Assembly (NCBI GenBank): GCA_017640615.1
Contig: JAEPQK010000004.1
Coordinates: 494,280-558,279, forward strand
Direction of reading: 5' to 3'
Source: Rhizobiaceae bacterium
GTDB lineage: Bacteria > Pseudomonadota > Alphaproteobacteria > Rhizobiales > Rhizobiaceae
Length of the DNA: 64,000 bases
Positions 7,211 through 63,132 of the stretch are shown piece by piece. The notes beneath the pieces are model-generated. The model did not search any database. It was not told the DNA's origin and was given only the letters and a program-made list of their open reading frames with translations. A program made the position numbers and the translations under genes. Within the stretch, counting starts at the first letter, position 1; every line of letters starts with the position of its first letter.

Positions 7211-7342
7211 ATGAAAACTGCCGTATTGTCTTTGCTGTTGCTCGCGGCGGTTTCTATGTCGGCGATCGGTCTTTACTCAACCAAAGCCGCGGCCGACCGT
7301 TCCGTTGCTGACGGCTACGGCGTCAACCTGGCGCGCCAGTAA
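7211..7342 (+). CDS. Small secreted or membrane-anchored peptide (43 aa)
   Basis: Too short for the ORF track. Reads MKTAVLSLLLLAAVSMSAIG followed by a short polar tail ending GVNLARQ and TAA. The first 25 residues look like a signal peptide or single membrane helix (Lys, long Leu/Ala run). GGGGA lies about 8 bases before the ATG at 7211; an in-frame ATG at 7202 is the alternative. Its last 20 bases overlap the 3' end of the convergent phosphatase gene. No known family recognised. Confidence 0.5.
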   Translation: MKTAVLSLLLLAAVSMSAIGLYSTKAAADRSVADGYGVNLARQ

Positions 7343-8069
7343 CGCTCAATACTCTCTTTTCCGCACCGTCGATCACCAGCGCGCTCAAGATGCCGCTGCG
7401 ACAAGCGCCTGTATCCACACAAATACGGTTTGGCATGAACTCCGGCTCGGCACAGGGTGTGTGTCCGTGTACCACAACTTTTGCGTGGAGCTGCGGGTCG
7501 TTCAAAAACGGCGTGCGTATCCAGATCAGGTCGTCCGGCTCTTGGTCCGCCAGAGCGACGCCTGGCTTGATGCCTGCATGGCAAAAGAAGAAATCACCGA
7601 AGCTCGCCGAATAGGGCAGCTCTGAGAGAAACGACAGATGGCGTGGAGGAATGGCTGCAGCCAGTGCGTCGCGGGTGGCCGCTTGCCCAGCCTCCGTATC
7701 GAAGGCGCCGGCGACGCCGTAAGAGGCTGCCGTCTCGGCTCCGCCGTGATTGACGAACAGGCTGGCATTCTCGCCGCCGAAGATGAAATCGATGAGGCCC
7801 TGATCGTGATTGCCGCGTAGCGCGATGTTGCGCGGCTCTGCCTCGCACTGCGCAGCCAGTAGCTCGACCACCCCGCGTGTCTCCGGCCCGCGGTCGCAAT
7901 AATCGCCAAGGAAAATGATGCGCCAGTCGGCGGGCGGGTTTGCGGCGAGGTCGGCCATGATACGCTCAAATATCGCTTCAAGCAGGTCGAGCCGGCCGTG
8001 AATATCGCCGACCGCGAATATACGCATTCCGGCCGGGCCTTCGGCATCCAGTAGATGAACGCCGGTCAC
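7323..8069 (-). CDS. PPP-family metallophosphatase
   Basis: A roughly 234-248 residue calcineurin-like phosphoesterase. The canonical metal-binding motifs appear in order: GDIHGRLD, GDYCDRGPETRGVVE, GNHDQ, then FCHAGI and VVHGHTPC. This is the bacterial serine/threonine-phosphatase-like (PrpA/ApaH-related) group; the substrate could be phosphoproteins or dinucleotides. MRIFAVGDIHG (ATG at 8027) is a plausible start as most homologues begin there; the ORF start at 8069 would add 14 residues and overlap lutC by 4 bases. Confidence 0.85.
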   Translation of the reverse strand: MTGVHLLDAEGPAGMRIFAVGDIHGRLDLLEAIFERIMADLAANPPADWRIIFLGDYCDRGPETRGVVELLAAQCEAEPRNIALRGNHDQGLIDFIFGGENASLFVNHGGAETAASYGVAGAFDTEAGQAATRDALAAAIPPRHLSFLSELPYSASFGDFFFCHAGIKPGVALADQEPDDLIWIRTPFLNDPQLHAKVVVHGHTPCAEPEFMPNRICVDTGACRSGILSALVIDGAEKRVLSVTGAPG

Positions 8070-35007: not shown

Positions 35008-36987
35008 TCAGCTCACGATCCTCAGGTTGGAAAGCTCGTTTCCGATTTCCCTGAACGTGTCGGCGAGGCTTCCGCCGGTCGCATTCCAGTATAGCTTGGC
35101 AGGAAGGTCGGGATTGTTCGGATCCTTGCGGAAGCGGGAATCCGAAGCGCAGGCTTTCAGCGCCTCGATAGCCTGGTTTTCGCCGGAGTCGCCGGTCGAA
35201 AGGTCGAGCGACACAGTCATCACGATCACGCCGGCGGCTTTGGCGCCCGCGCAAACCGAGGTGAGCTGCTGGTTGAGTGCGGCAGTGTAGTTGCTGTTCG
35301 AATAGTCGTAGAGGCCGAGACCGCTGGTGCCCATCATCAGGCGCGAGGTGCTGCCGCCGTCGTAGCCGACGCCGGCATAGCCATAGGCTGAGTATGTCGA
35401 CTTGTTGGACGCGGAATCGGAATAGCCCAGGGAGCCTGGTGTGTAATAGGTGTTCACGCCGTCGGTGAGCACGATAACGATCTTGTCGTTGCCCTTCTCG
35501 CTGTCGTCGCGGCCCTCGGTGAATGGCGCACCGCTTGACACCACCCGCCACCCCCATGCCAGCCCTTCGGGCACGTTGGTCGCGCCGCTAGGCTGCATGG
35601 CGTCGATCGCATCCTTCACAGCGGTAATTCCGGTTTCCGTGGACACATCGGTCAGCGGCGTGATCGGGTTGGTTGTGCAGCTGTAGTTCGGCCCTGTGCC
35701 GTAGGAGCTCGTTGCGCCGTAGGGGCGAACCTCGAAATACTTGGCCATATTGGCCTGGCGTGTCGCCGCGGAGGCAGCCTCGGTCCCGTCGTTCCACCAG
35801 TTGTTTGGCGCGGAGTAGTTGTCTGGCGACGAATCTTCCTCGGTCGCCCAGCGATCGCCGGCTTCGTCGGGCGCAAACATCGGCACAAACAAGGTGGCCG
35901 CATCGCCGTACACGGACCCTAGTTCTGAAAGTCCTGCATCAGGCACTGTGTCGGTGACGTTGTAGGGGTAGGGTCGAGATTCCACACAACCCTGCCAGCT
36001 TGCGAAGCTGCCGATTGTTTCGTCCCAGTAGCCGGTCTCTTTCCAGTAGCCGGAGCGGCAGGTGCCGTTCCCGCGATAGCGCGTACATATCCACTCCGAG
36101 CCGGTGGCCACCCATTCGCGCGAATCGACCTGCTGCATATCCTTGAAAAGAGAAAAGCGGCTGAGAATGGTGTCGGCGTCCGCGCCCCAGCCTTCGCCAC
36201 GCTTGTACCAGACACCTCCGGCTTTTTGCGCATAGCGGGTGGGGTCGGTCAGCGTCGACCAGTCGAAATTTTCATGGTGCACCGGCGAGATGCCGGCGGT
36301 GTCGATCCATGCTTCGCCGCTCATTTCCGGGCCGACATTGACCGAAGCTGCGAAGGGTACCAGTCCGAACTGCACCGGCTTCTCGACCTGTTTGATCTGA
36401 GCAGCCTGAAGCGCGAGTGTGTCGATCAGCTGCTTTGCCGCAACCTTCAAGAGATTGATGCGCTTTTCGCCGGAACCGGAGCCGGTGAAATCCATCGAAC
36501 CGGAATTGTCGAGAACGAGCGCAACTTCGAGTGTGTTTTTCAGTCTGATTTCGGTCTCCGCGCCCGACCTGATGGACGTCGCGGATTCGCGGTTCATGAG
36601 ATTCTGGAAGACAGGGAAGAAGTAAGGCTTGTAGTCGAGCGTGGCCGACAGCTTCAGTGTGCCGCCGCCGGCCTCGTTGCTTGGCAGATCGACCGACAGA
36701 ACGGTGTCGCCCGGATCGACCGGCCCGAGGTTGGCTTCGAAAAAGTCTTTAGCGTAGGCGAGCACCGCTTCTTCGCTCGCTCCGGTGACGATGTGGCGCG
36801 CGGTTGCAATGCCTGCCGCGTCGAGCGCGTTGAGCACCGCCTGACGCTCACGGTTGAGCCCCGCATAATCGACCGCCATCGCCATGCCGCCCATCAGCGG
36901 CACCAGCGCCGTCACAACAGCGATAGCGTAATTGCCGGCTTTATCCCGACAGAAATCGAGCAAAAGCATTCGACCAAGCCCCAGCAT
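35008..36987 (-). CDS. TadG-like von Willebrand factor A protein (paralogue 1)
   Basis: A 659-residue envelope protein. Residues about 1-60 (FCRDKAGNYAIAVVTALVPLMGGMAMAVDYAGLNRERQ) are a TadG-type anchored N-terminus. A vWA domain begins near residue 155 with an intact MIDAS, LVLDNSGSMD, and later NVPEGLAWGWRVVS and KIVIVLTDGVNTYYT. Between them is a long Trp/Tyr- and Cys-containing insert (WICTRYRGNGTCRSGYWKE, FASWQGCVESR). TadG proteins act in Flp pilus assembly or as adhesins; no tad cluster is nearby. Tandem paralogue of 37151-39046. Confidence 0.85.
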   Translation of the reverse strand: MLGLGRMLLLDFCRDKAGNYAIAVVTALVPLMGGMAMAVDYAGLNRERQAVLNALDAAGIATARHIVTGASEEAVLAYAKDFFEANLGPVDPGDTVLSVDLPSNEAGGGTLKLSATLDYKPYFFPVFQNLMNRESATSIRSGAETEIRLKNTLEVALVLDNSGSMDFTGSGSGEKRINLLKVAAKQLIDTLALQAAQIKQVEKPVQFGLVPFAASVNVGPEMSGEAWIDTAGISPVHHENFDWSTLTDPTRYAQKAGGVWYKRGEGWGADADTILSRFSLFKDMQQVDSREWVATGSEWICTRYRGNGTCRSGYWKETGYWDETIGSFASWQGCVESRPYPYNVTDTVPDAGLSELGSVYGDAATLFVPMFAPDEAGDRWATEEDSSPDNYSAPNNWWNDGTEAASAATRQANMAKYFEVRPYGATSSYGTGPNYSCTTNPITPLTDVSTETGITAVKDAIDAMQPSGATNVPEGLAWGWRVVSSGAPFTEGRDDSEKGNDKIVIVLTDGVNTYYTPGSLGYSDSASNKSTYSAYGYAGVGYDGGSTSRLMMGTSGLGLYDYSNSNYTAALNQQLTSVCAGAKAAGVIVMTVSLDLSTGDSGENQAIEALKACASDSRFRKDPNNPDLPAKLYWNATGGSLADTFREIGNELSNLRIVS

Positions 36988-37150: not shown

Positions 37151-39046
37151 TTAGCCGACGATACGCAGGTTGGAGAGTTCGTCGGCGATCTCCTTGAACA
37201 CGTCGTCGAGGTCGCCGCTGGTCGCATTCCAGAACAGCTTGGCCGGATCGCCGTTGGAACCGCGGCGGAAGCGCGAATTCGATGAGCAGTCCTTGAGCGC
37301 GGCTATCTGCGCCGCCTGGCTGGTGTTCGAGGACGACAGATCCAGCGCTACGGTCATCACGATCACGCCGGCCGACTTTGCATTGCCGCAGGTGCCGAGC
37401 ATGTGCTCGTTCAGTGCGTCGGAATAATTGTCGTTCGCGTAGTTGGTCGAGTTCACCGTGGTGTTCATGAACAGACGCGACTTGGACTCACCGGGCTGAT
37501 TACGGCCTGCATAACCATAGGCCGAGTAGATCGACTTGTTGTCCGCAAGGTCGTTGTGACCCAATGAACTCGGCGTGTAGTAAGTGTTCGCACCGTCCGT
37601 CAGCACGATCACGACCTTGTCGTTGCCCTTTTCGGCATCCGGACGCCCCTCGTTGAAAGGCAGACCGCCGGAGACCACACGCCATCCCCAGGCAATGCCC
37701 TCGGGAACATTGGTTCCGCCACTCGCCGCCATGCTGTCGATGGCGTTCTTGACTGCGGTAAGACCGGCCGATGCCGTAACGTCTGTCAGCGGAGTTATCG
37801 CATTGGTCGTGCACCCATCGTTCGGCCCCTGGCCGAGCAGTGCGGCAACAGTGCCATACGGCGCCGGTTCGAAATATTTCGGTCCGTATTTTTGGCGGTT
37901 GTAGTTGTTGCTGCTACTCGTCAGGTCGTCCCAGTAATTGCTACGGGCGCGGCGAGCCCACGAATCCCAGTTGTCCGTTTCGTCAGGTGCAAACAGCGGC
38001 ACATAAAGCGTTGCGGGATTGCTGCTGGACGGCGGTGTGTCGGTCCTATTGTAAGGTGCGGGGCGCGCCTCGACACAGCCCTGCCAGCTCGCAAAGGATC
38101 CATGAACCTCTTCCCAAGTGCCCGAGGTCACCCACTTCCACTTCTTGCAGGCACCCTTTTTCCACTTTTTGCAGACTTTTTCGGTCGTTGTGACATAGGT
38201 GTGGCCAGTGACCCGCTGCATATCTTCAAACAGTGAGAAGCGAGTAACGATTTCGCCCTCTTCGTCGTCCCAGGCGCTTCCCTTCTTCACATAGACACCG
38301 CCCGACAGTTCGATCTTCTTGTTCGAATTGGGAAACGCCGACCAGTCAAAATTCTCGTGATGGATCGGCGAAATACCGTTGGTGTCCATCCAGGATGCTG
38401 AGGCGTACTGCGAGCCAACATTGACAGAGGAGGCAAACGGAACGAGGCCGAACTGTACCGGCTTCGAAACCTGCTTCATCTGCCCGGCCTGCGAGGCGAG
38501 CTTGTCGACGAGGTCCTTTGCGGCGTCCTTGAGCAGCACCAACCGCTTCTTGCCGGAACCGGAGCCGACATAGTCCATCGAACCGGAGTTATCGAGCACC
38601 AACGCTACTTCGAGCGTGTTCTTGAGCCTGATCTCCGAGGTTGCGTTGAAGTCGATCTCGGCTGTGGGGTTCTCACCGCCCATCAGCGACGAGAATGCCG
38701 GCAGGAAGTAGGGCCTATATTTGAGGTCCGCGGTCAGCTTGAGCGTGCCGCCACCGGCATTGTTTTTCGGCAGCACGACCGTCAGCGACGCGCCTTCGAT
38801 GTCGCCGAGGTTCGCCTTGAAGAAGTCTTGCGCATAGGCGTGGAGCTGCTCGTCCGTTGCGCCTTCCACAACGCGCCGCGCCGTTGCGATGCCGGCCGCA
38901 TCCAGCGCGTTCAGCGTCAGCTGGCGCTGCCGGGACATTTCTGTGTAGTCGACGGCGAGCGCCATACCACCCAGGATCGGCACCAGTGCCGCCGCGGTCA
39001 TCAGCATGTAATTGCCGCGGGTATCGGAAAGAAAACGACGCAACAT
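37151..39046 (-). CDS. TadG-like von Willebrand factor A protein (paralogue 2)
   Basis: A 631-residue close paralogue of the neighbouring gene: RRFLSDTRGNYMLMTAAALVPILGGMALAVDY membrane anchor, MIDAS LVLDNSGSMDYVG near residue 150, NVPEGIAWGWRVVSGG, VVIVLTDGANTYYTPSSLG, and the same terminal DELSNLRIVG. The insert differs (CKKWKKGACKKWKWV is Lys/Trp-rich where paralogue 1 has an Arg/Tyr-rich stretch). Start at ATG 39046; the extension to 39097 lies upstream of the anchor. Likely a divalent-cation-dependent surface or secreted-matrix adhesin. Confidence 0.85.
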   Translation of the reverse strand: MLRRFLSDTRGNYMLMTAAALVPILGGMALAVDYTEMSRQRQLTLNALDAAGIATARRVVEGATDEQLHAYAQDFFKANLGDIEGASLTVVLPKNNAGGGTLKLTADLKYRPYFLPAFSSLMGGENPTAEIDFNATSEIRLKNTLEVALVLDNSGSMDYVGSGSGKKRLVLLKDAAKDLVDKLASQAGQMKQVSKPVQFGLVPFASSVNVGSQYASASWMDTNGISPIHHENFDWSAFPNSNKKIELSGGVYVKKGSAWDDEEGEIVTRFSLFEDMQRVTGHTYVTTTEKVCKKWKKGACKKWKWVTSGTWEEVHGSFASWQGCVEARPAPYNRTDTPPSSSNPATLYVPLFAPDETDNWDSWARRARSNYWDDLTSSSNNYNRQKYGPKYFEPAPYGTVAALLGQGPNDGCTTNAITPLTDVTASAGLTAVKNAIDSMAASGGTNVPEGIAWGWRVVSGGLPFNEGRPDAEKGNDKVVIVLTDGANTYYTPSSLGHNDLADNKSIYSAYGYAGRNQPGESKSRLFMNTTVNSTNYANDNYSDALNEHMLGTCGNAKSAGVIVMTVALDLSSSNTSQAAQIAALKDCSSNSRFRRGSNGDPAKLFWNATSGDLDDVFKEIADELSNLRIVG

Positions 39047-39156
39047 TGCTCGGTTACCCCACCATGGCTCGATTTTCGGCGGGTACAATGCGCACAAACC
39101 CCTTAAGGTGAGGTTTTCAAGCGCTCCGATTTCGATGTGTCGGCTTTAGCTTTTGT

Positions 39157-57686: not shown

Positions 57687-57789
57687 GCCCCCAAAGCGGT
57701 TTCATTGCGGCCTGATTTGGTCTAGTGACTCCGGCACCATTGGGGCGGGCGGCGCCACGAATGTGTCGCACAATTTCAGGGTCGTACTC

Positions 57790-58047
57790 ATGTCCAATTC
57801 GGAAGCTACCGAACAAAAGCAGTTGCTCCATCTCGTATTTGGCGGCGAACTTTCTTCGCTCAAAGGCGTACAGTTCCGTGACCTTGAATCGCTGGACGTG
57901 GTCGGCGTCTTTCCCGATTACAAATCGGCCGAAACGGCATGGCGCGCCAAGGCGCAGGCCACAGTCGACAACGCCCATATGCGTTATTTCATCGTACATC
58001 TTCACCGCCTTCTCGACCCCGACGCGGACGCTGGTTCGGCGGATTAG
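57790..58047 (+). CDS. DUF4170 family protein
   Basis: An 85-residue soluble protein: LHLVFGGELSSLKGVQFRDLESLDVVGVFPDYKSAETAWRAKAQATVDNAHMRYFIVHLHRLLDPD is the whole DUF4170 domain. In rhizobia it regularly precedes waaA, but its role is unknown. ATG 57790 (MSNSEATEQ) is chosen over the upstream frame extension. Confidence 0.88.
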   Translation: MSNSEATEQKQLLHLVFGGELSSLKGVQFRDLESLDVVGVFPDYKSAETAWRAKAQATVDNAHMRYFIVHLHRLLDPDADAGSAD

Positions 58048-58116
58048 CGTCATGTTGGAGGCCGGTCTGGCCGTATCGGGTATCGAGCGGCTTCATCTCG
58101 ACGCGGGAGCGCAGGG

Positions 58117-59436
58117 ATGAGCGATCGCTGGGCGCGCACATTGATGGGTGGCTACCGGTGGGCGGGCGCGGCTGCCTACCCGTTTGTCGGCGGCTATATG
58201 GCCTGGCGGGCCGGGCGCGGCATCGAAGATAGCGGCCGCCGCCGCGAGCGTTATGGCCGCAGCGACAAACCACGCCCGGTCGGTCCGCTGGTCTGGGTTC
58301 ATGCCGTCAATGAAAGCGAGACGCTGGCCGTAACAGGTCTGATCGGGCGTATCCTCGCGCTCGGTCTCGATGTTGTTTTGACCACGGGCACGCTCGGCTC
58401 AGCCCGCGTGGCGCGTGAGCGGCTGGGCGACCGGGTGATCCACCAATATGCGCCGCTCGACCTCAAACCCGCGGTAAGCCGCTTTCTCGATCACTGGCGG
58501 CCCGACCTCGCCATTATTGCGGAATCCGAAATCTGGCCGATGACCATTCTGGAACTCGGCGCCCGGCGCGTTCCCATGGTGCTTGTTAATGGCCGTATGT
58601 CGGAGCGCGCCTACGAGGGCTGGCGCAAATGGCCCTCGCTGGCCGAGGCGCTGCTTGAAAACCTGTCGCTTGTCTCGGCCCAGTCCGAGCAGGATGCAGA
58701 GAGGTTCACAGCACTCGGCGCAAGGCCGGTCGCGATCTCCGGCAGTCTCAAGACCGATATCGACCCGCCTCCAGTGGATGAGCTCGAAATGCGGCGCGTC
58801 TTTGCGCAGATCGGCAAACGAAAGTGCTGGGCCGCCCTTTGCACGCATCCGGGCGAAGAGCTTGCGGCAGGTGAGGCACACAAAAAGCTGAAAACGCGTT
58901 TCGCCGACGTGCTGACCGTGATCATGCCGCGCGATGCGGCGCGGTCGGATGCAATCGAGACGGAATTGGTAGGGCTTGGGCTGACGGTCGCGCGGCGCAG
59001 CCGTGGCGACAAGGTGACTGACAAAATCGACGTGCTGCTCGGCGACAAGGAAGAGCGCGGTCTTTACGTGCGCCTCGTCGACATCGCTTTCTACGGCGGA
59101 TCGATGTTTGGCGGCGGTGGCGAAAATCCGATCGAGGCGGTGGTGCTGGGCTCCGCCGTACTTTGCGGGCCGGACTATGCGCGCTGTGCCGACATCTACG
59201 ATCCGCTGATCGCCAAGGGCGGCGTGCGGTTGGTCAAGGAGAGGGAGCTTCTGGCCGGTGCATTGAACCATCTGATGCGCAATGACGACGCGCGCCATCG
59301 CATGATCGACGCCGGCACCAAGGCGCTCGAGCAGATGCGGGGCGCGCTCGACAACACGATGCGCGGGCTGGAGCCCTTCATTCACCCGCTGGTGGTGAAG
59401 GCCAAGCTCGGGAGCGCAACACCCACCCGTCGCTAG
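58117..59436 (+). CDS. waaA: 3-deoxy-D-manno-octulosonic acid (Kdo) transferase, atypical motifs
   Basis: A 439-residue GT30 glycosyltransferase adding Kdo to lipid A precursor at the inner membrane. N-terminal hydrophobic segment, IIAESEIWPMTILELG, LVNGRMSERAYEGWRKWP, and ISGSLKTDIDPPP are recognisable. Several family motifs are altered: HAASVGE appears as HAVNESE, PRHPER as PRDAAR, GDTMGE as GDKEER, and GGHNPIE as GGENPIE; the catalytic Glu, the PR pair and N-P-x-E are still present. Possibly active with changed specificity. Precedes lpxK. Confidence 0.85.
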   Translation: MSDRWARTLMGGYRWAGAAAYPFVGGYMAWRAGRGIEDSGRRRERYGRSDKPRPVGPLVWVHAVNESETLAVTGLIGRILALGLDVVLTTGTLGSARVARERLGDRVIHQYAPLDLKPAVSRFLDHWRPDLAIIAESEIWPMTILELGARRVPMVLVNGRMSERAYEGWRKWPSLAEALLENLSLVSAQSEQDAERFTALGARPVAISGSLKTDIDPPPVDELEMRRVFAQIGKRKCWAALCTHPGEELAAGEAHKKLKTRFADVLTVIMPRDAARSDAIETELVGLGLTVARRSRGDKVTDKIDVLLGDKEERGLYVRLVDIAFYGGSMFGGGGENPIEAVVLGSAVLCGPDYARCADIYDPLIAKGGVRLVKERELLAGALNHLMRNDDARHRMIDAGTKALEQMRGALDNTMRGLEPFIHPLVVKAKLGSATPTRR

Positions 59437-59487: not shown

Positions 59488-60516
59488 ATGGGAACCAGCG
59501 AAACGCCGCCTTTCTGGTGGCAAAAGCCCGACTGGAGATCGCTGGCGCTGGCGCCGGCAGCTGCGATCTATGCCAACGCGACGCGCATAAGGCTCGCACG
59601 CCCGGCGCGCGTGACGGTCGATCTGCCGATTTTGCGCGTTGGCGACTTCGCAGTTGCGGTTCCGGGGAAAACACAGGCCGCGATGGCCTTCGCACGGGCG
59701 GCCATCGCTTTCGGGCATCGACCGGGTCTGGTGTGCCAGGGGCCATCCGGTTTCGGCAATCAGCCGCATCGGGTCGATCCAGTGCATGACAGCGCCCGCC
59801 ATGTAGGCGAAGCAGCACTTGAGATGGCGCAGGTCGCGCCCACTATCGTCTGTTCCGATCGCGCCGCCGCTGCCCGCCTGCTGGCCGCCGAGGGTTGCGA
59901 TTTTCTGATCGTGGTGGACGGCCTGTCGGCCTGGCCATTGAAGACCCACTATTCCGTGCTGGTGGTGGATGCAGCACGCGGACTTGGCAATGAGCGGGTC
60001 GTGCCTGCCGGGCCACTGCGCGGCAGCCTCACCGACCACGCCCGCGCCGCCGACGCGGTGCTGCGCATTGGCAGCGCCGCCGGTGGCAACTCGGCTGTGC
60101 GCGCAGCGGCCCGCGCGGCCCGTCCGGTTTATGAATCGCGGGTGGTTTTCCGCAATGGTTGCGACCTGGCAGGCAAGAAGGTCATCGCGTTTTCCTCGAT
60201 CAAGCATCCGCAGAGCTTCTTCGAAGGCCTGCGCGAAATCGGCGCCGAGCTGTTGTCAGCGGACCATCTGGCCGAAGGCCATCTGCCGCCGGCCGATCGT
60301 CTTTCCGAGATGCTCGCCGAGGCGGTACACAAGAAGGCGCTGATCGTCACCACCCGACGCGACATGATACGGCTACAGGCAAGCGACACAGAGCTCGACG
60401 TGCTGAAAAACCGGCTGGTGCCGCTCGACATTGCTGTTGAATTCGAGGTCGAGGCCAATGCCCGCACCATGATCGACGAGACGATCGCGGAGTGGCGACG
60501 TTCGCGGGTTGGCTGA
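59488..60516 (+). CDS. lpxK: LpxK (lipid A 4'-kinase) homologue with degenerate catalytic motifs
   Basis: A 342-residue protein in the lpxK position. The opening PPFWWQKPDWRSLALAPAAAIYANA and VVDAARGLGNERVVPAGPLR identify LpxK. Signature motifs are eroded: Walker A GNxTVGGxGKT reads GDFAVAVPGKT, SRGYGG reads CQGPSG, GDEPLL reads GEAALE, DDGFQ reads VDGLS, the DHH segment reads EGH, and TxKD reads TRRD. Reading frame, length and synteny are intact. Loss of kinase activity or a new role is likely; family name is certain, function is not. Confidence 0.8.
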   Translation: MGTSETPPFWWQKPDWRSLALAPAAAIYANATRIRLARPARVTVDLPILRVGDFAVAVPGKTQAAMAFARAAIAFGHRPGLVCQGPSGFGNQPHRVDPVHDSARHVGEAALEMAQVAPTIVCSDRAAAARLLAAEGCDFLIVVDGLSAWPLKTHYSVLVVDAARGLGNERVVPAGPLRGSLTDHARAADAVLRIGSAAGGNSAVRAAARAARPVYESRVVFRNGCDLAGKKVIAFSSIKHPQSFFEGLREIGAELLSADHLAEGHLPPADRLSEMLAEAVHKKALIVTTRRDMIRLQASDTELDVLKNRLVPLDIAVEFEVEANARTMIDETIAEWRRSRVG

Positions 60517-60562: not shown

Positions 60563-61015
60563 ATGAGTGTTGAAACGGAAAATGCGGCAGCGCGCACACC
60601 CTGGCATCTTTGGGTAGTCGGCGGCGTATCGCTGCTTTGGAATGCAGTTGGCGCGTTCGACTATCTGATGACTCAATCGCGCGCCGAATGGTACATGGCC
60701 GAGTTCACGCCGGAGCAGCTCGAATATTTCTATGCTTTCCCGGCCTGGGCCGATGCGGGCTGGGCTTTTGGGGTGTGGGGCGCGTTTTTCGGCTCGGTCG
60801 CGCTGCTCTTGCGCCGCAGTTGGGCGGTCTGGCTGTTCGGCCTGTCGATCCTCGGCCTGATCGTCACGTCTATCTACAATTTCGTGCTGACAAATGGCGC
60901 GGAGCTGATGGGCGGCGGCATCGGGGTTTGGATTTTCAGCGGACTGATCTGGCTGATCACGATCGCACTGTTTTTCTACGCGAGGCGTATGGCTGCAAAG
61001 GGCGTGCTGCGCTGA
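60563..61015 (+). CDS. Small four-helix membrane protein
   Basis: A 150-residue protein with four hydrophobic segments (about residues 14-35, 66-84, 90-113 and 118-142). GGGAGGAGGTTCGC precedes the ATG. WHLWVVGGVSLLWNAVGAFDYLMTQ is shared by hypothetical proteins of proteobacteria, some called sugar transporter-like without evidence. No function assigned. Confidence 0.75.
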   Translation: MSVETENAAARTPWHLWVVGGVSLLWNAVGAFDYLMTQSRAEWYMAEFTPEQLEYFYAFPAWADAGWAFGVWGAFFGSVALLLRRSWAVWLFGLSILGLIVTSIYNFVLTNGAELMGGGIGVWIFSGLIWLITIALFFYARRMAAKGVLR

Positions 61016-61021
61016 GAACGC

Positions 61022-61255
61022 CTATTTGCTGCGCTTGCGCAGTTCCGGGTCGTGCTGCATCTCGGCTTTGAGCGAAGCCTCCGCGTCAAGATAGGCCTCT
61101 TGGCGTGCAACGCTCCAATAGCGCAGCTCATCGAGCGGAATGCTCTCCGCCGTTACTGCGCAACGCACGAACGCGCCCGGCGAAATGACCTGAAAGTCAC
61201 CGTCGAGATATCGGATCCGCGCCTCGCGGGCGCCGGGGCCTTCAAAGCGGTTCAT
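61022..61255 (-). CDS. DUF2093 family protein
   Basis: A 77-residue protein; IRYLDGDFQVISPGAFVRCAVTAESIPLDELRYWSVARQEAYLDAEAS is the DUF2093 domain, found next to mutL in rhizobia. ATG 61255 (MNRFEGPG) is chosen over 61297. Function unknown. Confidence 0.88.
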   Translation of the reverse strand: MNRFEGPGAREARIRYLDGDFQVISPGAFVRCAVTAESIPLDELRYWSVARQEAYLDAEASLKAEMQHDPELRKRSK

Positions 61256-61359
61256 GGCCTGTCCATACAAGTTCGCGCCGGCGTGCGACTTCCCCAACTG
61301 AGCGGCGTTCAGCCGCCACCCGCCTTACGGCCACAGATCGCACCTTAGGTCAAGCGCGG

Positions 61360-63132
61360 CTACCTACGGCCAAACAAGCGTTCAATGTCGCCGAGCTTAA
61401 GTTCGATATAGGTCGGGCGGCCGTGATTGCACGTCCCTGAGCCGGGTGTGGCTTCCATTTCCCGCAGTAGCGCGTTCATTTCGTCGGGCTTGAGGCGGCG
61501 ACCTGAACGCACCGAACCGTGGCAGGCCATGGTGGCCGCCACCTTGTTGAGCCGCTCTCGCAGCGTCTCGGCTGTGTCGTGTTCGGCAATTTCGTCCGCG
61601 AGGTCGCGCACGAGGCCCGCAACGTCGGTGTCGCCGAGCATCGCCGGTGTTTCACGCACGGCGATCGCACCGGGTCCAAAGCGCTCCAGCCCCAGCCCTA
61701 GTCTGCCAAACAGTTCCGAGTGCGTGGCGAGACGTTCGGCATCTTCTTCCGGCATGTCGATCACTTCCGGGATGAGAAGCATCTGCGCCGCCACCGGTCG
61801 GCTTTCGAGCCCGCGCTTCAGCGCCTCATAGACAAGCCGCTCATGCGCGGCATGCTGGTCGACGATCACGAGTGAATCCGCTGTCTGCGCAACGATGTAG
61901 TTCTCGTGGATTTGTGCGCGCGCAGCACCCAACGGCGCATCTTTGAGCGATGTGTCGTCGCTTGCCTCGGCGACTGGCGCGCTGATCACAGGCCCGGCCT
62001 CGAACAGGGCCTGTCCCGCTTCCGCGAAGCCGCCTGGGGGCGGCGAATAGGGTTGACGCCAGGCGGCAGGCGCTTGCGGAGCCGCACCTTCGGGCCGGAA
62101 TGCGTCCATCATCGCGCTGGCCGCCGAGGTGGAGGCGCGAATGCCGGCGCCAGCCAGCGTCTCGCGCACCGCGCCGATGATCAGCCCGCGCACGCGGCCC
62201 GGATCGCGGAAGCGCACATCGGCTTTCGCAGGATGCACATTCACGTCGACATCGGCGGGATCGAGCCAGAAAAACAGTGCCGTCACCGCATGCCGGTCGC
62301 GCGGAAGAATATCGGCAAATGCGCCGCGCATGGCTCCTGCGACCAGCTTGTCGCGGATCAGCCGCCCGTTGACGAATGCATATTGCTGCTGCGCGGTCGC
62401 TCGCGAATAGGACGGGATCGAAATATAGCCGGTGAGGCGAACGCCCTCGCGCATCGCATCGACCGGCAATGCGTTGTCGATAAATTCGTCGCCAAGCACC
62501 TGTGCAATGCGTTTGCGCGCCGCCTCGTCGCCAATGGCCGGCGAAAGCTCAAGCGTGGAGCGATCGCTGCCTGAAAGCGTGAAGCGCACCGACGGGAACG
62601 CCATTGCGATGCGCTTCACCACATCGGTGACAGCTGCTGCTTCCGCACGCGGGCCCTTCATGAATTTCAGCCGCGCAGGTGTGGCGTAGAAGAGGTCGCG
62701 CACTTCCACCGTGGTGCCGCGGTTGGTTGCGGCGGGTTTGACCGGCGAAGCCACGCCGCCCTCGACGCGGATTTCGGAGCCGGTATCGGCGTCCGCCGTG
62801 CGGCTGCGGATCGAAAGCCGTGCAACGGAACCAATCGAGGGCAAGGCCTCGCCGCGAAAGCCGAGCGTGTGAATGTCGTTGATGTCGGCGTCGAGCTTCG
62901 ACGTGCAGTGGCGGCCGACTGCCAGCGCCATCTCGTCCGGCGCAATGCCAGCCCCGTCGTCGATGACGCGGATCAGCCCGAGCCCGCCGCCTGCCGTCGC
63001 GACCTCGATACGCGTCGCGCCTGCGTCGAGCGCGTTTTCGACGAGCTCTTTCACCACGCTCGCAGGCCGCTCGACCACCTCGCCGGCGGCGATCTGGTTT
63101 ATCATCGTGTCGGGAAGTTGGCGGATCGGCAT
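61360..63132 (-). CDS. mutL: DNA mismatch repair protein MutL
   Basis: A 590-residue GHKL ATPase: [44 protein letters not shown] and the [19 protein letters not shown] segment. The C-terminal domain carries [12 protein letters not shown], fitting the DQHA-x2-E-x4-E nuclease motif, plus [12 protein letters not shown] and [11 protein letters not shown], so this MutL is predicted to nick DNA itself (no MutH needed). Length is typical. Confidence 0.97.

Follow-up and report, generated by a model that had tools for sequence, protein, structure and literature searches.

An LpxK homologue with a stripped catalytic site in a Rhizobiaceae genus with an incomplete lipid A pathway

The waaA-lpxK locus

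LpxK is the tetraacyldisaccharide-1-phosphate 4'-kinase of outer-membrane lipid A synthesis and is normally essential. The stretch of DNA analyzed here, a window of 64,000 nucleotides from a bacterium of the Rhizobiaceae, carries a homologue of its gene adjoining waaA, which encodes the Kdo transferase of the GT30 family (Table 1). The lpxK open reading frame starts with ATG and contains 342 codons and no internal stops. It is matched by the Pfam LpxK profile (PF02606) at 162 bits (E 2e-47; cut-off 27) over profile positions 3-326 of 328, bearing out the sequence-only reading of the gene as an lpxK homologue with an open frame. Its score against the NCBIfam LpxK equivalog TIGR00682, 83.8 bits, lies below the cut-off of 91.95. 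A single-protein phmmer search of the PDB recovered no match, unlike a profile derived from the alignment, which matched the LpxK of Aquifex. The AF2 model has a pLDDT of 90.6, and its top six PDB matches in the Foldseek ranking were all Aquifex LpxKs (best 4lkv and 4ehx, E ~1e-15), followed by cyclic 2,3-diphosphoglycerate synthetase; because canonical LpxKs are in the input alignment of the model, recovery of their fold is to be expected in part. These matches indicate that the protein is a true member of the LpxK family.

The order of the DUF4170 gene, waaA, lpxK, the DUF2093 gene and mutL is conserved, as had been proposed from the window, and the waaA-lpxK adjacency is shared with known LpxK. 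In most relatives a gene for a DUF374 protein, a family that is LpxJ-like (PMC6148475), intervenes between the DUF4170 gene and waaA (e.g. L043:7885-8667). It is absent in all six members of the genus considered below, and Notoacmeibacter also lacks it at this place, so this loss alone is not unique. A predicted membrane protein of 150 aa with no Pfam match is encoded between lpxK and the DUF2093 gene (60563-61015, +); four of the six genus members have a gene for it at the same place, and no outgroup locus does. Elsewhere in the window two adjacent genes on the reverse strand (35011-36987 and 37154-39097) encode long proteins, each with matches to a TadE/G-like N-terminus and a von Willebrand A domain.

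Table 1. Features of the waaA-lpxK region, in positions of the window
Feature	Position	Strand	Basis or remark
DUF4170 gene	57763..58047	+	conserved synteny, normal rate
DUF4170/waaA junction without DUF374 (LpxJ-like) acyltransferase gene	58048..58116	+	synteny
waaA (Kdo transferase, GT30), adjoining lpxK	58117..59436	+	Pfam, NCBIfam, alignment
lpxK homologue, stripped catalytic site	59488..60516	+	342 aa; Pfam, NCBIfam, AF2, Foldseek
P-loop segment GDFAVAVPGKTQ (canonical GNFTVGGAGKTP), residues 52-62 GDFAVAVPGKT	59641..59676	+	alignment
CQGPSG (canonical SRGYGG), residues 83-88	59734..59751	+	alignment
GEAALE (canonical GDEPLL), residues 107-112	59806..59823	+	alignment
VDGLS (canonical DDGFQ), residues 143-147	59914..59928	+	alignment
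EGH (canonical DHH), residues 263-265	60274..60282	+	alignment
TTRRD (canonical TTAKD), residues 288-292	60349..60363	+	alignment
DUF2093 gene	61022..61297	-	conserved synteny, normal rate
mutL, control gene	61360..63132	-	conserved synteny, normal rate

Catalytic residues and selection in the genus

The genus was sampled through six genomes (G000-G005), most of which look like MAGs. Completeness reaches 99% in two of them, 93% in the window genome and 85% in G005; G004 is the public MAG 'Rhizobiaceae bacterium isolate HCUG1432-7'. Each contains one LpxK, scoring 145-165 bits, as against 235-314 bits for the other full-length LpxKs listed in the family, where the few lower values are partial matches (151 genomes, 109 genera). 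A second, canonical LpxK, which had been offered as one explanation of the eroded motifs, was thus rejected: the profile search found a single copy in the window genome, as in the other five, including the two most complete. The closest named LpxKs outside the genus, from Mesorhizobium and its allies, are about 40% identical. Identity within the genus ranges from 38 to 90%, the deepest members (G002, G005) standing at about 40%. The genus is monophyletic in both the LpxK tree (100/99) and the WaaA tree (100/100), and the LpxK substitutions are graded, tracking the tree. Hence, as judged from these genomes, the motif erosion is a genus-wide property of an uncultured genus related to Mesorhizobium.

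The alignment confirmed every motif as it had been read from the window (Table 1). With correspondences to Aquifex LpxK read off the profile alignment by eye, the following changes were observed: 1) In the P-loop segment no member retains the N, T, second G or P, and GKT is kept in four. The Walker A lysine (K51) persists in the window protein and three others, and its loss falls in the deepest members, as D in G002 and R in G005. 2) The equivalent of R72 in SRGxGG, which binds the 1-phosphate of the lipid in Aquifex (PMC6286764), is lost throughout (Q, P, P, A, L, T). 3) The P and L of GDEPLL are likewise lost in all six; the equivalents of D99 and E100 are E and A in the window and are altered in most members, E100 being lost in four. 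4) DDGFQ has lost D138, F and Q142 in every member, with V, A or L at the position of D138, an Mg ligand whose mutation cuts kcat 4700-fold (PMC6286764). D139 is kept in five and is E in G001. 5) The first His of DHH, corresponding to H261, the proposed catalytic base, whose mutation cuts kcat 850-fold (PMC6286764), is Gly in all six, and the second, non-invariant His is kept. 6) The equivalent of K280 is R in all six. The earlier statement that all signature motifs are eroded holds in that all six are altered, with the correction that GKT, D139 and the second His of DHH are kept in the window protein.

The residues that are kept include PPFWW, G60, T62, GLGN, PAGPxR (its R178 being the equivalent of the lipid-affinity residue R171 of Aquifex) and R209, the equivalent of R206, which contacts adenine. 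The T52 and R206 equivalents persist in all six members, and the membrane-facing N-terminal helix, with its aromatic/amphipathic segment, is also retained. Losses were counted over two sets of conserved columns. The first consists of 59 columns that do not vary among 79 named relatives and E. coli; every genus member has lost 13 of them, all in catalytic motifs, and has kept 22. The second comprises 80 columns with at least 97% invariance across 38 canonical relatives; here 16 positions are gone from every member, and 14 of these 16 lie inside the six named motifs (Fisher p = 1.2e-5). Because the losses are so concentrated, the erosion is judged not to be a matter of chance.

Pairwise NG86 dN/dS for lpxK within the genus spans 0.08-0.27. 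The pair with the least saturation (dS 0.63) gives 0.084 and the remaining pairs 0.15-0.27; dS exceeds 1 for most pairs, only one being comfortably unsaturated. The corresponding values are 0.07-0.20 for the neighboring waaA and 0.01-0.08 for lpxC. Ratios of this size indicate that lpxK is maintained in the genus by purifying selection and is not drifting freely; they support the earlier remark that the gene is under some constraint and, being similar to those of waaA, contradict the suggestion that it is free to drift. Alignment with relatives, previously proposed as a means of finding whether these residues are normal for a functional sub-family, reveals that they are normal for the genus and that this sub-family is under selection, an outcome that goes half of the way towards refuting the earlier reading.

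When divergence between genus and outgroup is compared with that between outgroups, LpxK, LpxA, LpxD and WaaA are accelerated in the genus (LpxA and LpxD by reference to two outgroups), and PmbA, DUF4170, DUF2093, MutL and GltA are not. The acceleration of LpxA is strong (G000-G005; L151 lpxA), at about 45% identity to outgroups that are 62% identical among themselves, and suggests a changed acyl or sugar specificity.

WaaA has also lost conserved residues, whose acceptor- and donor-site roles we take from PMC6286764. In the SVGE acceptor motif, S and V are missing from every member and G from five. None of the six has the His of PRH or the Asn that lies near the CMP site, the TIGEM donor loop is changed, and further acceptor- or donor-site positions, CMP-binding residues among them, are altered. 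The catalytic Glu (A. aeolicus E31) is kept, and for this reason the Kdo step may be unchanged in kind.

The remainder of the lipid A pathway

Our survey of the pathway covered LpxA, LpxC, LpxD, LpxI, LpxB, LpxK, LpxL and WaaA. LpxA, LpxD and WaaA are retained in the genus, LpxD in all six genomes with lpxD-fabZ-lpxA in synteny, and LpxC is present in five at about 330 bits, with no match in G005, the 85% complete genome. The canonical Raetz pathway, in which LpxA, LpxC and LpxD are followed by LpxI or LpxH, LpxB, LpxK, WaaA and LpxL, is nevertheless incomplete. Profile searches found no LpxB (PF02684) in any of the six genomes, as against seven of seven family relatives, and no LpxI in any of the six. 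Between lpxA and gltA, where relatives have about 2.1 kb with lpxI-lpxB, five genomes of the genus have about 70-100 bp and G002 has 469 bp, indicating that this gene pair has been excised in the genus. With LpxI and LpxB lost, the substrate of LpxK, tetraacyl-disaccharide-1-phosphate, should not exist. LpxL acts on the disaccharide, so its loss was predicted before any search was made; the LpxL family (PF03279) then proved absent from all six genus genomes and present in all 12 other family genomes. The earlier suggestion that a 4'-phosphate might not be needed pointed in the right direction, but it missed the larger cause, the genus-wide loss of LpxI, LpxB and LpxL.

A metallophosphoesterase encoded in the window (7329-8069, -) was considered as LpxH and rejected, resembling PPP/ApaH-type phosphatases. 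E. coli kdsA, kdsB, kdsD and lptA gave no tblastn match in the approximately 0.5-0.6 Mb that was searched, a minor part of the genome and too little for the negative to be informative.

Candidate functions, rival explanations and comparison with known systems

Loss of catalytic residues throughout a clade and maintenance of the gene by purifying selection, the features that mark pseudokinases and repurposed enzymes, are found together in this protein, in agreement with the earlier notion of a repurposed pseudo-kinase, which the catalytic losses in all six members and the dN/dS values support. We accordingly favor, with a probability of roughly 0.6, the reading that the LpxK of this genus no longer acts as a lipid A 4'-kinase and is selected for another, genus-specific role. 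Its core, namely that the protein does not act as the lipid A 4'-kinase, that the pathway is truncated and that the gene is retained by selection, appears distinctly likely. At the level of sequence the pathway is cut after LpxD, with LpxA, LpxD and LpxC (the last in five of six genomes) left, which should make UDP-2,3-diacylglucosamine, the presumed last common intermediate; LpxK has lost its Mg-binding Asp, catalytic His and 1-phosphate-binding Arg, with its fold, N-terminal helix and P-loop G and T staying in place, and WaaA has changed in parallel. The genus thus probably builds an unusual, shortened lipid A or puts the precursor to other use. UDP-diacylglucosamine could then pass into a monosaccharide-type anchor capped by Kdo or another sugar, or into another glycolipid. 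As to the new role itself, we tentatively propose that the altered LpxK is a lipid-binding partner of WaaA or a new enzyme working beside the altered WaaA. More tentative by a shade is the proposal that a neofunctionalized pair of LpxK and WaaA turns UDP-2,3-diacylglucosamine directly into a monosaccharide lipid anchor, in place of the normal disaccharide steps and with no part played by LpxI, LpxB, 4'-phosphorylation or LpxL acylation.

Several other explanations were weighed. LpxK might remain a kinase or other nucleotide-dependent enzyme, with a rebuilt site that accepts another substrate, for example a diacylglucosamine monosaccharide. The retention of GKT in four members and of the T52 and R206 equivalents in all six, the presence of D or E at the D139 position and the conservative change of K280 to R would fit this, and the related cyclic 2,3-diphosphoglycerate synthetase illustrates that the LpxK fold can switch chemistry. 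However, the P-loop lysine is gone in G002 (D) and G005 (R), E100 is lost in four members, and both the Mg ligand D138 and the base H261 are lost in all six, and we regard such an enzyme as unlikely. Slightly less probable again is a normal disaccharide lipid A made through unrelated replacements for LpxI, LpxB, LpxK and LpxL. Non-orthologous swaps are known, of LpxH by LpxI and of LpxM by LpxJ (PMC3087551, PMC6148475), and LpxA, LpxC, LpxD and WaaA are kept; but several swaps would be needed simultaneously, and the genus has lost LpxK R72 and the S28 and G30 region of WaaA, which contact or adjoin the 1-phosphate of the normal disaccharide. That lpxK is a relic, decaying but still unbroken after loss of its substrate pathway, accords with the absence of LpxB, LpxI and LpxL and with its faster evolution than its neighbors. 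This is strongly disfavored, and we consider it improbable, given that none of the six genomes has a broken frame even though identity falls to about 40% in the deepest members, that dN/dS is 0.08-0.27 and that non-catalytic invariant residues are kept throughout. Finally, assembly or binning artefacts, conceivable for genomes that are mostly MAG-like and a window genome 93% complete, are a very remote explanation of identical losses in six assemblies, of which two reach 99% completeness, of unbroken intergenic sequence where the genes were excised and of substitutions graded along the tree.

The preferred reading, of a former kinase retained for another role, can be set beside several characterized systems. 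The LpxK of Aquifex aeolicus (PF02606; 4ehx, 4itl, 4lkv) shares with the genus protein the full-length profile, fold, N-terminal segment, P-loop G and T and the R171 and R206 equivalents, and differs in having R72, D138, Q142, H261 and K280, lost in all six members, K51, lost in two, and D99/E100, mostly lost; the substrate synthase LpxB is, in addition, absent from the genus. WaaA/KdtA (GT30) is likewise syntenic in the genus, with the catalytic Glu kept, and differs in the SVGE, PRH and TIGEM regions. The four-enzyme pathway of Cyanobacteria and Dictyoglomi (LpxA, LpxC, LpxD, LpxB; PMC3087551) is similarly shortened, with LpxK and LpxL functions missing, but the situation is reversed: LpxB is present there and lpxK and waaA are missing, whereas the genus lacks LpxB and keeps homologues of both genes. 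For Rhodopseudomonas viridis, R. sulfoviridis and others, work cited within PMC9470727 described a lipid A with a diamino-monosaccharide backbone. These alphaproteobacteria, which are related to the order of the genus, provide a precedent for monosaccharide lipid A known by its chemistry, whereas the evidence in the genus comes from genes. A literature search of partial coverage turned up neither an LpxK described as having eroded catalytic motifs nor an LpxA/C/D pathway that lacks LpxB.

An LpxC, the first committed enzyme, under strong selection across a whole genus, with the disaccharide synthase discarded and the kinase stripped, would imply that the oldest part of the pathway leads here to another end product. 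The minimal chemistry of the outer-membrane lipid anchor thereby becomes directly testable, and the case is relevant to how related bacteria make monosaccharide lipid A, the genetics of which is unexplained. It also supplies a natural set of mutations for separating the catalytic from the non-catalytic roles of LpxK.

Of 348 sampled genomes of the order, 52 gave no LpxB and 58 no LpxK, and the follow-up drew on 20 of the negatives in each list. Loss of LpxB with LpxC kept was rejected as a common trait, since the other LpxB-less clades checked (f5, f15, f23, f36-f38, f47, f51 and G218) also lack LpxC. Three incomplete LpxB-less assemblies (G159, G162, G169) keep LpxC and a canonical LpxK. Weak LpxK matches in clade f51 (E ~1e-4) were considered as a parallel eroded LpxK and rejected, being confined to the P-loop (profile positions 33-71) and likely due to chance. 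Among the genomes checked, only the present genus combines LpxA, LpxC, LpxD and WaaA with a stripped LpxK and no LpxI, LpxB or LpxL.

LpxC, LpxB, LpxI and an above-chance LpxK are all missing from at least G157, G207 and G243 (f5), G167 and G214 (f15), G175 and G220 (f23), and G188 and G229 (f36), and likewise from G189 (f37), G190 and G230 (f38), G199 (f47), five f51 genomes and G218. Several of these are 95-100% complete, and G157 also has no LpxD above cut-off; such clades apparently have no lipid A pathway at all. A different pattern was observed in family f6 (G158, G208, G244; L223), which has LpxC and a diverged LpxB and no LpxK, with LpxL absent in the two genomes tested (G158, G208) and LpxI absent in G158. 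In this family too, lipid A is apparently made without the 4'-kinase, a second instance in nature.
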